Assembly: GCA_019638615.1 (NCBI GenBank)
Contig: JAHBTL010000034.1
Location: 17,417 to 81,416 of the forward strand
DNA: 64,000 nt
Source: Chitinophagaceae bacterium
Lineage (GTDB): Bacteria > Bacteroidota > Bacteroidia > Chitinophagales > Chitinophagaceae
Direction: 5' to 3'
In this document: positions 33,229 to 62,532 of the stretch, one piece after another
Layout of the letters: each line of letters begins with the position of its first letter
Position numbering within the stretch: position 1 is the stretch's first letter
The notes under the pieces: generated by a model
Seen by the model: only the letters and a program-made list of their open reading frames with translations
What the model was told of the DNA's origin: nothing
Database searches by the model: none
Translations under genes and position numbers: made by a program

Positions 33229-35616
33229 TTATCTTTTAAAAATGAACTTCACTAAGCGATCCAACAGTGGCTTGTTTTTTCCTTTTTCTGGTTGAAAATA
33301 TTCTCCTCCATAACCATATCCATAACCATAACTATTAGCATAACCATATCCATAATAGCCTTTATACCGTCCCTGCGTTTTTATATCATTTATTACAAGC
33401 CCCATATTAGGCAGCCTTTTTTGCAGATATACGTTTTCAACCATGGCCAACTGTTTCTTTACAGTATATCCCTGCCTTACAATATATAAACTGGCATCTG
33501 CGAAATTACTAAGAGTAAAGGCATCACTTACAAGCCCAATTGGCGCTGTATCAATAATAATAGTATCAAATCTTTCTTTTAATGAAGTAAATAGCCTTGA
33601 TACCTGTTTGTCTAAAAGTAATTCCGAGGGGTTAGGAGGAATGGGTCCGCAGCCGATTACATACAAATTATCAAACCCAGGAACCTGTTGAATTATTTCA
33701 TCCAACGTTGCATTTCCAATTATGTAGTTGCTCAACCCCTTCGGCGCATGCATGTTAAGTCCCCTCAACAGTTTTGGCTTGCGGATATCAAACTCTAATG
33801 CTATTGTTTTTTTATTTGTAAGGGAAATAACGGCACTATAGTTAGTAGCAACAAAAGATTTTCCTTCGCCACTCACAGAAGAAGCAACAAGTATAACCGG
33901 CTTGTCGATTTTATTAAGAAGGTATTGCACATTGGTTCGCATTATCCGAAATTGCTCTGCAACCACTGTTCTGCTTCCAGATTGCACAATCAAGGTTTCA
34001 TCGGCAGCATGACCTATTTCACCAACAATAGGCGTTTGGGTTTGTTTTGTAATCTCATCCCTGTTTAAAACTTTATCATTTAGCATTTCTATTATCGCAA
34101 TAATTCCCACCGGAATCAGTGCGCCAAGGAAAAGAGCAATTAAATATATATTTCTCTTATTAGGCGCAACGGGGGTTCCTGAGGTAAACGCTTCTTCCAA
34201 TGGAGTTGAGCCTGCTACTGTTGCAGCAGCTGAGATTGCGGATTCTTCTCTTTTTTGCAATAAAAACAAATATAAATCCTGCTTGATCTTTTGTTGGCGT
34301 TCTATATCTAAAAGTGCTTTGGCTTTAATCGGAACGGTTTTGATACTTGTTTGAGATTGATTGATCTGGTCTTGAAGCTTATTAATTGTGATCTTATATG
34401 CCTGTTTTACATTTTTAAGAACCTCTTCAATTTGGTCGCGCAATTTTGCAAGAGCAGCATTCATTTGCAATAAGGACGCATTAGATTCTCCTGTTGTGGC
34501 AGCCAGGTTGTTGCGTTGCAATTGCAATCCATTGTATTGAGCAATTAAAGGGAACAATGATGGTTCCTGTACACCAAGGTCTGTCGGCACCATCTTGTAT
34601 AAGTTAGACGGCGCACTAATGTACGTTATTAAATAGTCAATTATACCAACCTGAACCTGCTGAGTAAATAAATCCTTGTTATTTTCAGAAAAGCTTGAGA
34701 AATATTGCTTTGACTGCTCGGAAAGGTCCACAATATTATTTTTCTCCCGAAACTTCATCAACCCACTTTCAACATCGCCCAATTCACTTTTAATAGTATC
34801 CAGGCGTTCATCGATAAATTGCATCGTTGCTCTCAATACCTCACGCCTTCCTTCCACATTCATTTTTCCATATTCCTTCATTAATTCATTTATCACATCC
34901 TTTCCATAGGTTACGTTATCGGTTTCAATGTAAATATCTAAAATAGTTGCCTGATCGATTGTCTGTACAGTATTAATTGACGAGGCTAAGGCCTTAGTAG
35001 ATATATTTATTGGAGAGTATGTTATGACAAAGATATTACTGCTGAAAGCGCTGAGAGATTGTTCCTTTACTCTCTGCATTCTAAAAACTCCAGCATTATT
35101 TTCAAATTCCTCATTATAATTAATTAAAGATTGTTGATTGCTGAATTTAAAGCCAGACTCTCCAACCTCTATTTCAAAATTGAATGCTCTGGACGAATCT
35201 TTGATCCGGATTATTTCGAGAGCAACCGGATTAGCTTTATAAACGTTAGAAGAGCGCACATTCCCTCTATTGAAATAGCCAACTTCTAATCCCAGATTCT
35301 TTACCACTCTTTGAACTAAACCACTCGATTTTAAGATCTCAAGCTCATTTTTCAGGTTAACATTATCCGAAAAGAGGAACATATCTTCCAGACCCGCAGA
35401 ATTTCTTGAACTATTTTTAGTGTCTTTATTATTAATATACAAAGAGCCTGTAACCTTAAATATTGGTGTACTATACCGTATTTTCACATAAGCAAGCAGC
35501 AATGCGATTGTTAGAAAAATAAATACAAGTGGTAGATATCGGAGATATTTATTAAGAAACTCCTTTAAATTAAATTCATTTACAGTTTTTTCCTGGAATT
35601 CTTTAGTTATCGACAT
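33229..35616 (-). CDS. Wzc-type polysaccharide co-polymerase with BY-kinase domain
   Basis: 795 residues. A Wzz-type N-terminus with the first membrane helix (about 28-46), a periplasmic coiled-coil region (about 270-480) and a second helix (about 492-512, IYLIALFLGALIPVGIIAI) precede the cytoplasmic kinase. There, Walker A is SGEGKS ending at Ser587, Walker A' is ALEFDIRKPK and Walker B is TIIIDTAPIG. Ten tyrosines fall between residues 751 and 773 (YGYGY pattern) and are the likely autophosphorylation sites. It controls chain length and export with the Wza-type protein 5 bp upstream. The PHP phosphatase at the left edge is the probable opposing enzyme. Confidence 0.93.
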   Translation of the reverse strand: MSITKEFQEKTVNEFNLKEFLNKYLRYLPLVFIFLTIALLLAYVKIRYSTPIFKVTGSLYINNKDTKNSSRNSAGLEDMFLFSDNVNLKNELEILKSSGLVQRVVKNLGLEVGYFNRGNVRSSNVYKANPVALEIIRIKDSSRAFNFEIEVGESGFKFSNQQSLINYNEEFENNAGVFRMQRVKEQSLSAFSSNIFVITYSPINISTKALASSINTVQTIDQATILDIYIETDNVTYGKDVINELMKEYGKMNVEGRREVLRATMQFIDERLDTIKSELGDVESGLMKFREKNNIVDLSEQSKQYFSSFSENNKDLFTQQVQVGIIDYLITYISAPSNLYKMVPTDLGVQEPSLFPLIAQYNGLQLQRNNLAATTGESNASLLQMNAALAKLRDQIEEVLKNVKQAYKITINKLQDQINQSQTSIKTVPIKAKALLDIERQQKIKQDLYLFLLQKREESAISAAATVAGSTPLEEAFTSGTPVAPNKRNIYLIALFLGALIPVGIIAIIEMLNDKVLNRDEITKQTQTPIVGEIGHAADETLIVQSGSRTVVAEQFRIMRTNVQYLLNKIDKPVILVASSVSGEGKSFVATNYSAVISLTNKKTIALEFDIRKPKLLRGLNMHAPKGLSNYIIGNATLDEIIQQVPGFDNLYVIGCGPIPPNPSELLLDKQVSRLFTSLKERFDTIIIDTAPIGLVSDAFTLSNFADASLYIVRQGYTVKKQLAMVENVYLQKRLPNMGLVINDIKTQGRYKGYYGYGYANSYGYGYGYGGEYFQPEKGKNKPLLDRLVKFIFKR
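33297..33375. repeat. hexamer-like repeat coding for the tyrosine-rich kinase tail
   Basis: CCATAA/CCATAT units recur on the plus strand; on the coding strand they read as Tyr-Gly pairs. The 6-bp step keeps the reading frame, so gain or loss of units would change the number of tyrosines without a frameshift. Confidence 0.6.
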
Positions 35617-40275: not shown

Positions 40276-40425
40276 TTGCAAGTTACAGGGTGCAGGTGAG
40301 ATTTCCTGATTTCTGGTTTGGCTCCGAACATTCGGAGTCTAATCTGAATAGAAGATGCCGGGTATTAGACACATGGCACTGATAGCTGACTGCTGATAGC
40401 TGATACCTGACAGCTGATAGCTCAC
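40274..40425. repeat. word-like intergenic repeats and a small palindrome
   Basis: Three elements follow the stop at 40275: GTTGCAAGTTACAGGGTGCAGG; a perfect palindrome CTCCGAA-CA-TTCGGAG (40322-40337); and several imperfect copies of CTGATAGCTGA (40376-40425). Similar words occur in other spacers of the window and inside ispG. Confidence 0.6.
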
Positions 40426-48734: not shown

Positions 48735-48850
48735 AAGGTTGAAGGTGTATGGTTTAAGGTTGGGGGGTTGGGGTATACGGGTAATGGATGGTGGACAATT
48801 GACAAAGGACAGTTGAAACAGTTGCAAGTTCCAGGTTCCAGGTTGCAAAT
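48735..48850. repeat. word-like intergenic repeats
   Basis: Runs such as AAGGTTGAAGGTGTATGG, GACAATTGACAAAGGACAG and GTTGCAAGTTCCAGGTTCC directly after the YkuD_2 stop. They resemble the spacer words at 40274, 43897 and 49292 and fill the space before repeat copy 2. Confidence 0.55.
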
Positions 48851-58817: not shown

Positions 58818-59026
58818 ATGCGGCTGATTTATGGTGAGGGAATTAAAGATATTAAAAAGCGTTGTATGAAGGAAATAAATCAACCTGCGTATAGCAGCAC
58901 AATTAGTTTTGCACATTTTAAAATTTAGCCCTGTCCGCTGGAGGAGGCGCCCGCCCTGAATAAGAGATCTGGTACGGATTTTATTTAAATGATTTTTGTA
59001 ACTTGATTTATTTTAAAACAGAAAAC

Positions 59027-59482
59027 ATGAAAACGAGTTACACATTAATATTCCTTAGTCTGTTTCTATCATGTAGCCCGGCAGGAAAGGAATCAAAAAA
59101 TAAAGAATCAGCGCATACCAATACAAAGCCGCCTTCAGTGATCAATTGTTATAAATATGAAAGTGTATCGGATACTGTTGTTTTAAAATTAATTCATGTA
59201 GGAAAATCAATTACAGGTACCCTTGTTTATACATTAAAAGAAAAGGATAAGAACATGGGTACTATACAAGGATCAATGAGGGGGAATATACTGGTTGCAG
59301 ATTATATCTTTATGTCAGAAGGAACTCAATCCGTAAGGCAGGTGGCATTTAAGTTGGATGGAAACACTTTTATTGAAGGATATGGAGAGATTTTAGTTGA
59401 AAACGAAAAATCCAGATTCAAAAATCCAGATTCACTAACCTTTGATTCTTCTATAAAACTGTTAGAATACCCTTGTCAATAA
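59027..59482 (+). CDS. hypothetical lipoprotein
   Basis: 151 residues from ATG 59027. LIFLSLFLSCSPAGKES is a lipoprotein signal. The mature part is beta-rich with GTLVYTLKEKDKNMG and GSMRGNILVADYIFMSEG, which reads like a lipocalin-like or 'META'-type small barrel, but I cannot assign it. Convergent with ispG (11 bp apart). Confidence 0.7.
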   Translation: MKTSYTLIFLSLFLSCSPAGKESKNKESAHTNTKPPSVINCYKYESVSDTVVLKLIHVGKSITGTLVYTLKEKDKNMGTIQGSMRGNILVADYIFMSEGTQSVRQVAFKLDGNTFIEGYGEILVENEKSRFKNPDSLTFDSSIKLLEYPCQ

Positions 59483-59493
59483 GCTGTATTGTC

Positions 59494-61581
59494 TTACGGC
59501 TCTACCCACGCATCATTCTCTTTCAGCAGGTTGATCAGCTCTTCCACGGCGATATCACTGTTTACTGATCTTTTCACCACTTCCTTTCCTTTGTATAAAG
59601 TAATTTTTCCGGGACCGCTGCCTACATAACCAAAGTCTGCATCCGCCATTTCGCCGGGGCCGTTCACTATGCAACCCATAATAGCGATTTTAACCCCTTT
59701 GAGGTGATTGGTTACCGCACGGATCTTGGCGGTGGTTTCCTGCAGGTCAAACAACGTTCGGCCGCAGGATGGGCAGGAGATATATTCTGTTTTGGAAATA
59801 CGGGTGCGCGTTGCCTGCAAGACAGAGAACGCTGTATTGTTGATGAACTGCTCTACACTTTTGTTGTTGATATAATTTCTTCCGCTGGCATTTAACTGCG
59901 CGTAGTTGTTGGCAAGCAGGTCATAGCTTGCCTGTTTCATCCCCAGGCAAATTCCGTCACCAAAACCATCTAAAAACAAAGCGCCGGTTTCAGTGGCAAA
60001 ATGGATCAGGTGCTCATCAGGCGTTTGCCAGCTACTGTCGGTTATCAGTATTGCGGGGTTGTCGATCTTCTTTTCTTCTAATTGTACAAACATGCTCCGT
60101 ACAGATTGCATCGCGTTTTTATTGGGGCTGCTCAAACACAATACAACAGTACGATCATTCTTTAGCGCATCTAAACGAGCTTTATCAAAATTATTATTGC
60201 CGTTACAATCCAGCATCACAAAATTCATTGTTTTGCTCTTCACACCTCCTGAAGCAACGATAAACGCTTCCAAAGAAAATACAGGAAAGTATTTTTCCCT
60301 GTCGCTGCAGGAGATCCATTGCGAAGCAGGCACCATTACTTTCAGGGTACCGGGCAGGGCAAAAGGCAATTCGCCGTTTTCAGTATACATATAGTCGGCA
60401 GCCATATCCCCGATATTCCATTTATCCAGTCCTTCATCATAATGATAGCCAATATGCTGAAGAGCTACAGGCGTTACCTCACCTGCTTTGCTCATATCTG
60501 CAACTACCACCGGCACATGATGCCCACCGATATTGCCCACCGGGAAAGTTTCGCGGCGTTGGTATTGGAAAGGGGAATAGGCAATGGGCAATGGGCAATG
60601 GGCAATGGGCGGTGAGCTGTGGGTTATGGGCAATATATCGCCTTCCCTTCCTCCTTCTTCTTTTCTCCCTATTACCGATGGCTGATAGCTCATCGCCCTT
60701 GGCTGATATCTCTTTACAATATCCTTACACACCGGTATTTCAAATTCCGGATCTTCGGTTAGCGATACCCGTATGGTGTCGCCTATGCCATCTTCCAGCA
60801 AAGTGCCGATACCGATAGCTGATTTTATTCTTCCGTCTTCGCCATCGCCAGCCTCGGTTACACCAAGATGCAACGGGTAGTTTTCGCCAAATTCATCCGT
60901 CATCTGCCTTACCAGCAGCCTGTATGCCTGTACCATTACCTGCGGGTTGCTGGACTTCATGCTCAGGATAATATTGTGATAGTCCCCGCCTCTTGCAATA
61001 CGCAAAAACTCCATTGCACTTTCTACCATGCCCATCGGCGTATCGCCATACCTGCTCATGATCCTGTCGCTTAATGAACCGTGATTGGTACCAATGCGCA
61101 TGGCGGTACCATATTCTTTACAAATTTTAACCAATGGCGTAAAGCGATCTCTTATGCGCTCTATCTCCGCATTATATTCTGCATCGGTATATTCAATATG
61201 CTCAAACTTCTTCTTATCAATATAATTACCCGGGTTAACACGAACCTTTTCTACAATGCGGGCCGCTATTTCTGCAGCATTGGGTGTAAAATGTATATCA
61301 GCGATCAATGGAACATTGTACCCCCTTTTGTGCAATTCGTTTTTAATATTCAGTAAGTTTTCCGCTTCTTTTTTGCTGGGAGCGGTAATACGCACCATTT
61401 CCGCGCCGGCTTCAATACAGCGGATCGACTGTTCCACGGTTGCGATGGTGTCCATGGTGTCGGTAGTCGTCATGGTTTGTACCCTGATGGGATGAAAATT
61501 GCCCAGCAGGAGGTCACCGACCTTTACTTCCCTGGTTTTTAACCGTTTATATTCTGTTAAGGACTCACAATACCACTGCAT
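59494..61581 (-). CDS. ispG: 4-hydroxy-3-methylbut-2-enyl diphosphate synthase (long form)
   Basis: 695 residues from ATG 61581. TIM-barrel half: VQTMTTTDTMDT, GAEMVRITAPSKKEAENL and ALHLGVTEAGDGEDGR-type segments (HLGVTEAGDGEDGRIKSA). The middle A* domain found in Bacteroidota, Chlorobi and plants follows, and the Fe-S half ends with SCPSCGRTLFDLQ and GCIVNGPGEMADADFG, which hold the three cluster cysteines. It makes HMBPP in the MEP isoprenoid pathway and should be essential. An in-frame stretch of about 40 residues between the barrel and A* domain (near 60570-60710) is made of repeats like those of the spacers, including a 7-bp tandem repeat. A -7 box lies 30 bp upstream. Confidence 0.96.
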   Translation of the reverse strand: MQWYCESLTEYKRLKTREVKVGDLLLGNFHPIRVQTMTTTDTMDTIATVEQSIRCIEAGAEMVRITAPSKKEAENLLNIKNELHKRGYNVPLIADIHFTPNAAEIAARIVEKVRVNPGNYIDKKKFEHIEYTDAEYNAEIERIRDRFTPLVKICKEYGTAMRIGTNHGSLSDRIMSRYGDTPMGMVESAMEFLRIARGGDYHNIILSMKSSNPQVMVQAYRLLVRQMTDEFGENYPLHLGVTEAGDGEDGRIKSAIGIGTLLEDGIGDTIRVSLTEDPEFEIPVCKDIVKRYQPRAMSYQPSVIGRKEEGGREGDILPITHSSPPIAHCPLPIAYSPFQYQRRETFPVGNIGGHHVPVVVADMSKAGEVTPVALQHIGYHYDEGLDKWNIGDMAADYMYTENGELPFALPGTLKVMVPASQWISCSDREKYFPVFSLEAFIVASGGVKSKTMNFVMLDCNGNNNFDKARLDALKNDRTVVLCLSSPNKNAMQSVRSMFVQLEEKKIDNPAILITDSSWQTPDEHLIHFATETGALFLDGFGDGICLGMKQASYDLLANNYAQLNASGRNYINNKSVEQFINNTAFSVLQATRTRISKTEYISCPSCGRTLFDLQETTAKIRAVTNHLKGVKIAIMGCIVNGPGEMADADFGYVGSGPGKITLYKGKEVVKRSVNSDIAVEELINLLKENDAWVEP
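60580..60607. repeat. four tandem 7-bp units (GGCAATG) inside ispG
   Basis: GGCAATG is repeated four times without error, with GGC starting a fifth unit. On the coding strand it reads ATTGCCC, giving the peptide IAHCPLPIA. Since 7 is not a multiple of 3, loss or gain of one unit would shift the ispG frame. Confidence 0.85.
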
Positions 61582-61610
61582 ATAATCCGTATGATATAAA
61601 AAATGAGTAG

Positions 61611-61618
61611 CAAAGGTA
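61611..61618 (-). promoter_or_regulatory. -7 promoter element (TACCTTTG) of ispG
   Basis: The minus strand reads TACCTTTG, matching TAnnTTTG, 30 bp before the ispG start at 61581 and so favouring that start over an earlier one in the same frame. Confidence 0.5.
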
Positions 61619-61731
61619 AACAAAGCATAGAAAAACCTGTAGGGTTTGCAGCGCGCTCCTTATCCTCAGAAGGGGAATGGCAGCCCTGCAAACCCTGTAA
61701 GCTTAATAACAAACGGAAGGCGCGGCCTGAT

Positions 61732-62532
61732 TTAGTATTCTACATTGTACTCCGCCGCTTCGGGGCGGTTGATTATATCTGTTAGAGTGGTAAAAAATGT
61801 AACGGTTTTTTTATCGGGGGCTACCTCCACATTGTTGCCCTTATATTTTTTGACATTGCCGGGTAAAACAAATACCGTTTTGTAATTCATATCGCCTATC
61901 ATAACCGATAGCTGCTGCATCATTTGCAGCGATGAATCCTGCAATACCTTGTCGTTGAAAAGCTCTTTGTTCACCAGCGTATTGGCAATTTTTCCGGGAG
62001 CTGCAGTAAATGAATAGGCCTCCTGGGCCGGGGTTAATAAGCTTTTATTTGCCGATAAATCATCGGGCATATCTCCCGGGACGCTTTCTTCGCCTTTATT
62101 CAGCTTTTTTGAAACCCCCAGCTTATCAATAGCCGTAATATATGTACTTTTCAGATCCGGCAAATCCGAAACATTTTTAAAGGGGAAACTGAGTATAACC
62201 TTCATTTCCTTTGCTGCTTCATCTACCTTCGTCCGTAGGTTGCCCTCCCGGATCAGCTCTTTTTCTTTGGCGCTAAGCGCTGCAGAGGTATCAACGTAAG
62301 GTTTGAAATATACAATCGTATCCTTTTTCTCCAGCGCTTTTAATGAATCTTTTTGCGCACCGCCCATCTGCTCCATCAGGGCAAGCAGCTTGCTCATATC
62401 CAGCGTAAGCGTATAGATGCCGCTGTTGTTTTTATTGATCACGATCTTTTCTTCTGCGTCAAGGCAGGCTGTCAGCAAAAAAGAACAAAAGACACTTATT
62501 CCGAACAGTATTTTCTTCGTCATATTGAACAT
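61732..62532 (-). CDS. hypothetical lipoprotein
   Basis: 266 residues. ILFGISVFCSFLLTACLD is a lipoprotein signal with lipobox LTAC. The mature part starts EEKIVINKNNSGIYTLTLDM and ends KGNNVEVAPDKKTVTFFTTL, a pattern of alternating beta-strands seen in Bacteroidota proteins of unknown role. Starts at 62532 or nine bases later (MTKK); the signal is complete either way. Not tied to a pathway by its neighbours. Confidence 0.75.
   Translation of the reverse strand: MFNMTKKILFGISVFCSFLLTACLDAEEKIVINKNNSGIYTLTLDMSKLLALMEQMGGAQKDSLKALEKKDTIVYFKPYVDTSAALSAKEKELIREGNLRTKVDEAAKEMKVILSFPFKNVSDLPDLKSTYITAIDKLGVSKKLNKGEESVPGDMPDDLSANKSLLTPAQEAYSFTAAPGKIANTLVNKELFNDKVLQDSSLQMMQQLSVMIGDMNYKTVFVLPGNVKKYKGNNVEVAPDKKTVTFFTTLTDIINRPEAAEYNVEY

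Follow-up and report, generated by a model that had tools for sequence, protein, structure and literature searches.

Heptanucleotide repeats in the reading frame of ispG, at a hypervariable linker behind the TIM barrel, in a Chitinophagaceae bacterium and its relatives

The window analyzed here, a 64,000-nucleotide stretch of the draft genome of a Chitinophagaceae bacterium (G000 in what follows), carries ispG (gcpE; 59494..61581, minus strand), encoding a long-form IspG of approximately 695 amino acids if translation begins at the likely start codon, the ATG at 61581. The open reading frame reaches further, to a TTG at 61623, and is unbroken over 59494-61623, as the preliminary description had stated for the passage of ispG through a stretch of repeats. 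The assignment is based on profile matches to PF04551 (E 5.1e-121) and TIGR00612 (450.8 bits; cutoff, 280.25), and IspG has a single match in this genome. The 343 positions of PF04551 are stretched over residues 15-686 of the protein; according to excerpts of PMC10663253, IspG of Bacteroidota carries an extra domain, A*. A profile of 40 IspG proteins matched four distinct IspG sequences of solved structure. Matches to solved two-domain IspG break off near where the TIM barrel ends, at profile positions 290 and 297 in the two alignments inspected, and in 3noy the aligned barrel part is followed by a second match in the C-terminal part of the profile. The insert described below lies directly after the first aligned block, the barrel, in agreement with its earlier placement between TIM barrel and A* domain.

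In an alignment of 131 IspG ORFs, this position falls in a hypervariable linker region, here 55 codons long (60541..60705, minus strand; from after KRY to before VGNIGG), whose last approximately 13 residues (YSPFQYQRRETFP) are conserved in relatives. Compared with the 105 distinct array-free genes, in which the median is 31 residues, the gain is approximately 24 residues; the low-complexity expansion that had been put at about 40 residues is present, but its net size is smaller. The region contains a 7-bp array (60569..60635, no strand assigned) with degenerate first units, four perfect GGCAATG units (60580-60607, beginning at 60580, 60587, 60594, and 60601, as had been noticed at the outset), and four further units in register, GGCGGTG, AGCTGTG, GGTTATG, and GGCAATA. 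A second group, of CTATCAG type, follows at 60679..60712 (likewise without assigned strand; plus-strand TGGCTGATAGCTC and TGGCTGATATCTC, 21 bp apart), and its last bases overlap the codons that precede the linker. These two words of TGGCTGATA type are the GATAGCTCA/GGCTGATATC words of the preliminary description, and they do resemble, as proposed there, a CTGATAG/CTATCAG-type array outside predicted ORFs at 40379..40422, detected by TRF and by the period scan.

TRF and the period scan agree on period 7 for the ispG array. Period-7 self-match over 60571-60712 was 0.60, a value reached by none of 2,000 base shuffles, and in the scan of the window period 7 passed only in ispG and at 40379-40422. 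A shorter scan window added a third period-7 site, at 48819-48848, where an AGGTTGC/AGGTTCC-like heptamer array lies outside predicted ORFs. TRF also reported a hexamer array, CCATAA, in eight imperfect copies at 33308-33355. Since three heptamers make 21 bp, a heptamer array is translated as a seven-residue repeat, AHCPLPI in this ispG and SYQLSAI for CTATCAG. From its variability, the linker appears to be disordered, and the insert probably acts as a spacer only. Another reading would place a functional DNA or RNA element, such as a regulator binding site or a structured RNA, in ispG by chance, and heptamer elements have indeed been proposed to be regulatory in Geobacter and Beggiatoaceae (excerpts of PMC2700814 and PMC4679880). 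However, the sequence is not conserved, no Rfam match at gathering score was found in 59000-62000, and predicted RNA folding of 60542-60706 was not better than that of shuffled sequences (z 0.43), so that we regard such an element as extremely improbable.

The linker was then compared across relatives. A search of 58 genomes, one for each species and G000 among them, matched ispG in 46, and these matches, 80 named loci of a second collection, whose named relatives place the window in or near Chitinophagaceae, and 20 further stretches gave the 131 aligned ORFs, 122 of them distinct; loci L031-L060, which were pattern hits, were skipped in the linker survey. With an array defined by at least 15 of 21 matches at period 7, the linker contained one in 17 of the 122 distinct genes (12.5 kb), compared with 8 of 122, two of them also among the 17, for the rest of the gene, an approximately 19-fold longer sequence (237 kb). 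All periods from 4 to 6 and from 8 to 13 together gave one hit in the linker, and the harmonic period 14 gave 15. Outside the linker, period 9 gave hits in 44 of the 122 ispG genes. Median linker length was 41 residues with an array (n = 17) versus 31 without (n = 105).

The heptamers seen in linkers, named by eye from printed sequences, were CTATCAG, GCCCATT, GCTCACA, CTCACCA, CGTGAAA, CCAGYAA, CAGTTGA, CAGTCAA, ACAATAG, and AAAGTCC. The ispG linker is hypervariable, and the same site is filled with different heptamers in different lineages; a conserved, nonrepetitive linker common to all relatives was not seen in the alignment. On a tree of IspG with the linker removed, array presence required 11 changes (random labels, 16.2 on average), which indicates that it is partly inherited and partly a repeated event; at a stricter threshold of 16 of 21 (13 positives), 8 changes were needed. 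An assembly or sequencing artifact might be suspected in a draft genome of 87 contigs, short repeats being error-prone, but sister species, each assembled separately, have arrays at this site that differ from the present one and are likewise in frame, and we consider this explanation virtually negligible.

Within the genus, the heptamer of the linker follows the abundance of that heptamer in the genome. Genomes were searched with a pattern of three consecutive units (for CTATCAG with up to three mismatches), and the reversed pattern served as a control. CTATCAG matches numbered 292 in G005, 236 in G002, 212 in G000, 66 in G008, 62 in G004, 52 in G003, 43 in G006, 15 in G009, 4 in G010, 1 in G007, and 0 in G011 and G001; the reversed control gave 0 in all 12 genus genomes. 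CTATCAG units occur in the linker of exactly the five genomes with the highest counts (62 to 292) and in none of the seven with counts of 0 to 52, although the G000 linker has only about two such units. The two genomes with a CTCACCA-type linker, G003 and G006, likewise lead the genus in CTCACCA matches, with 74 and 48 compared with 18 and 17 in the two that follow, counts that rest on comparison between genomes only, as do those for CAGTTGA, since for both heptamers the reversed pattern matches about equally often and is invalid as a control. In the genus tree, the five genomes with CTATCAG linkers fall into one clade and the pair with CTCACCA linkers into a separate one; because the members are related, the match of motif and abundance is suggestive and does not count independent events. 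The perfect units of the window behave differently from CTATCAG: GGCAATG is rare in G000, where GCCCATTGCCCATT was found with at most one mismatch at 10 places, four of them in ispG (reversed control, 2). The earlier reading of an in-frame insertion of intergenic-type repeat DNA is supported, with the correction that the common repeat of this genome is CTATCAG, found at the 212 places given above, and not GGCAATG itself.

Outside the genus, the agreement is partial. G024 has 304 CGTGAAA matches and an ispG linker built of CGTGAAA; G008, with 361 such matches, has a linker without CGTGAAA. CTCACCA is frequent in G058 and G059 (103 and 82 matches, to be read by comparison between genomes), yet their linkers have other motifs. 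CCAGCAA, present in the G059 linker, has eight matches in that genome, three of them at the ispG position, and the 35 matches of G023 accompany a linker without CCAGCAA. For G060, G063, and G062, all with CAGTTGA-type linkers, 6, 7, and 5 CAGTTGA matches compare with 39, 29, 28, and 19 in G064, G018, G059, and G000. Hence, linker motif and abundant heptamer coincide in the genus and in G024, but not generally. Two side observations concern these motifs: in G008, whose linker is of CTATCAG type, a CGTGAAA match (C45:140407-140427, L148) immediately precedes the ispG ORF, and in G000, five CAATTGA/CAGTTGA clusters of alternating orientation are spaced 0.6 to 1.4 kb apart at C1:451441-455361.

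To place arrays relative to genes, ORFs were called by a greedy longest-ORF rule, which is not a gene finder. In 861 kb sampled from G000, 55 period-7 arrays were detected, versus 0 to 6 at each of the periods 4-6 and 8-12. Although approximately 89% of this sequence lies in predicted ORFs, 50 of the 55 arrays were outside them. Five were in ORFs of at least 200 residues, and three of these were in gene bodies, one in ispG and two in a gene for a DEXH helicase (G000:C1:354708-357314; TIGR04121, 1,068 bits). The others, at N-terminal edges, were judged to be upstream of plausible starts and were not counted as coding (two in G000, one in G005, two in G024, and one in G058). Gene orientation around intergenic arrays in G000 showed no clear bias: among gaps of at least 60 bp, 22 tandem, 6 divergent, and 5 convergent ones had arrays, compared with 226, 63, and 60 overall.

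The helicase was matched in 8 of the 12 genus genomes, short array matches elsewhere being set aside. Its DEWH and SAT motifs are 77 (G000) and 63 (G002) residues apart where CTATCAG arrays are present (18 and 19 of 21 matches), and 48 residues apart in G006, with a CACCATT/CACTCAC array (18 of 21). In G003, G004, G005, G007, and G008, the loop has 39 to 41 residues and no array (7 to 10 of 21), and this short form looks like the empty state. In all three array-bearing genomes, the heptamer type of the helicase loop is that of their own ispG linkers.

Unlike the mostly intergenic arrays of G000, those of G024 are mostly coding: among 30 arrays in 728 kb, 24 were in predicted ORFs of at least 90 residues and 19 in ORFs of at least 200. 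With the two N-terminal-edge arrays removed, the remaining 17 of these 19 fall in eight genes; five arrays in ORFs of 90 to 199 residues, four of them in ORFs made of repeats, were left out. Besides ispG (three arrays, in the linker and at a second site), the genes are those for PcrA/UvrD (one array, between UvrD_C and a tudor domain), the E2 component of a 2-oxoacid dehydrogenase (one, between the E3-binding and catalytic domains), a fused pyruvate dehydrogenase (PDH) E1 alpha-beta (two, between the halves), PyrD (one), a VimE-like deacetylase (two), a NadR-like kinase (one), and PdeM (L216:9294-10376, i.e., G024:C98:89294-90376). The pdeM gene has six period-7 arrays of several different heptamers, encoding approximately 140 residues, and TIGR04123 covers residues 11-151, ahead of this stretch. 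In PyrD, residues 138-164 remain unaligned opposite a single residue of 8ofw, and G065, the second genome of the genus of G024, has a different insert at the same site. Elsewhere, 15 arrays in 400 kb of G005 included none in a gene body, 24 arrays in 200 kb of G058 included none inside a plausible gene body (one array in a 90-residue repeat ORF was left out), and 200 kb of G015 contained no array.

Stop codons leave a trace in the coding arrays. In the longest ispG array, that of G024 (L010), 21 units are in register and agree with CGTGAAA at four or more bases. None of the seven units in the stop phase contains TGA, compared with 11 of the 14 units in the other two phases (Fisher p = 0.001). 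The test dropped 15 of 36 in-register units because fewer than four of seven bases matched; two of the dropped units fall inside the array, and neither has TGA. An open frame lacks in-frame stops by definition, and the point of the test is that the array otherwise retains TGA; the G024 ispG array does avoid stops. More generally, pure CTATCAG and CTCACCA arrays can be read without stops in a single orientation, which is the orientation seen in linkers, and pure CGTGAAA, CAGTTGA, or ACAATAG arrays would carry stops, with linkers holding only broken or short versions of them.

These data bear on a proposal of the preliminary description, that ispG might be a contingency locus. At such a phase-variable locus, slippage of the heptamer would act as an on-off switch for IspG or adjust its activity. 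Four perfect tandem units of a length not divisible by three speak for it, and a coding heptanucleotide array of this behavior is known from NeuO of the E. coli CUS-3 prophage, whose poly-psi domain is, as in ispG, a seven-residue repeat encoded by a heptanucleotide array (excerpts of PMC3046976). However, that array, as the same excerpts describe it, is N-terminal, uniform, slipping, phase variable, and activity tuning, whereas the ispG array is internal and degenerate and lies in a probably essential enzyme. In the 46 genomes where ispG was matched, one per species, no listed match contained an internal stop; arrays are degenerate and in mid-gene, 105 of the 122 distinct ispG genes have none, and the stop phase of the L010 array is free of TGA. 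In addition, HMG-CoA reductase had no match in G000, so that the MEP route is probably the sole route there and IspG probably essential. We therefore consider a contingency locus very improbable and retain the second option of the preliminary description, that an enzyme expected to be essential tolerates an expanded linker, as in-frame arrays occur at this hypervariable linker in several lineages. HMG-CoA reductase was found in two of the 12 genus genomes, G009 (C4:36157-37302) and G011 (C159:15536-16615), and the ispG linkers of both are free of arrays. Since ispG is present in these two genomes as well, they may possess the two isoprenoid routes side by side.

We favor the explanation that the insert is dispersed heptanucleotide-repeat DNA that has become part of the ispG frame where a linker joins TIM barrel and A*, and we think this is probably correct. 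Units would spread between loci by some copying process, and arrays would lengthen or shorten by slippage. Most insertions in genes would be lost, and those in disordered linkers would be kept if their length is in frame and their orientation or sequence is stop-free. The alternative of purely local slippage on preexisting linker sequence, with no exchange between loci, has some merit: tandem units can arise by slippage, the linker is hypervariable, heptameric repeats are overrepresented in many bacteria (excerpts of PMC4692102), and outside the genus the linker motif often differs from the abundant heptamer of the genome. Against it stands the finding that, in the CTATCAG clade, this one heptamer fills ispG, the helicase loop (in G000 and G002), and many other places, and that 8-mers of the linkers are shared with other arrays above the level of codon shuffles. 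Among linkers of the CTATCAG clade, 27 to 57% of the 8-mers occurred in other arrays of the G000 sample, versus 3 to 5% for codon shuffles; the G005 linker compared with the smaller array sample of its own genome gave 20% versus 2%, and the G024 linker compared with its own sample without ispG gave 38% versus 3%. Thus, we judge purely local slippage unlikely. Sharing is not strictly lineage bound, and with foreign arrays it can reach the level expected for a linker's own genome, given that the G006 linker has 32 to 34% of its 8-mers in common with G024 and G058 arrays, the G059 linker has 24 to 30% in common with arrays of these two other genomes, and the L092 linker has only 6% in common with sampled arrays of its own genome, G058. 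A link to IS200/REP-type transposases was considered and rejected, as Y1_Tnp matches in the 12 genus genomes (G000, 7; G002, 5; G005, 8; G008, 3; G004, 5; G003, 10; G006, 3; G007, 9; G001, 10; G009, 5; G010, 6; G011, 1) do not follow CTATCAG counts.

Housekeeping genes of Rickettsia carry palindromic elements, dispersed repeats whose insertion keeps the reading frame. Here, too, repeats are inserted in frame in genes of this kind, in ispG and the helicase, and in pyrD, the PDH E1 and E2 genes, pcrA, and others in G024. In contrast to the Rickettsia elements, the present insert consists of tandem heptamers and has no palindromic core; its only inverted pair is of 10 nt, with arms 87 nt apart and one of them outside the linker. 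Palindromic coding elements in Rickettsia housekeeping genes are mentioned in the excerpted text of PMC2996958, which describes PARCEL, likewise dispersed repeats in coding sequence, but with units of 25 residues, dyad symmetry, and a location largely in membrane proteins. Closer in unit length are the TAACTGA heptamers of Beggiatoaceae, Cyanobacteria, and five Bacteroidetes (PMC4679880) and the dispersed heptanucleotide repeats GGGAATC of Xanthomonas and GGGGA(C/T)T of Nostoc (PMC4692102). According to excerpts of these papers, such families resemble ours in their 7-bp, often imperfect units, many sites, and lineage-specific motifs; they are mostly intergenic with few intragenic cases, such as a TAACTGA pair in purC, whereas here arrays lie in frame in linkers of housekeeping genes, repeatedly. 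In Geobacter metallireducens, GGGACCG elements of four units each occupy 49 sites, some inside genes and others between them (excerpts of PMC2700814), and were interpreted there as regulatory. Among the matches listed in our search of mostly open-access literature, no paper dealt with heptamers inserted in frame in IspG, nor with such inserts in Chitinophagaceae.

If the favored explanation is correct, repeats whose unit length is not a multiple of three have repeatedly been turned into protein sequence of core enzymes, and the filters acting on them, reading frame and stop codons, can be seen. The birth of disordered linkers would then be observable across sister species, which would provide a natural map of insertion-tolerant sites. 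A frame-selected linker with an array-free sister state would be a better record of heptamer gain than intergenic DNA, and ispG linkers would offer a handle on how heptamer families arise and spread. It is tempting to speculate, in a generalization that we hold tentatively and lean slightly against, that heptamers in Chitinophagaceae might be spreading coding inserts, copied between loci and into linkers and surface loops of housekeeping enzymes as low-complexity segments of 10 to 150 residues, in dozens of proteins in the most affected genomes. In G024, the eight array genes found in the 0.73 Mb sampled would correspond to roughly 60 if extrapolated to 5.5 Mb.
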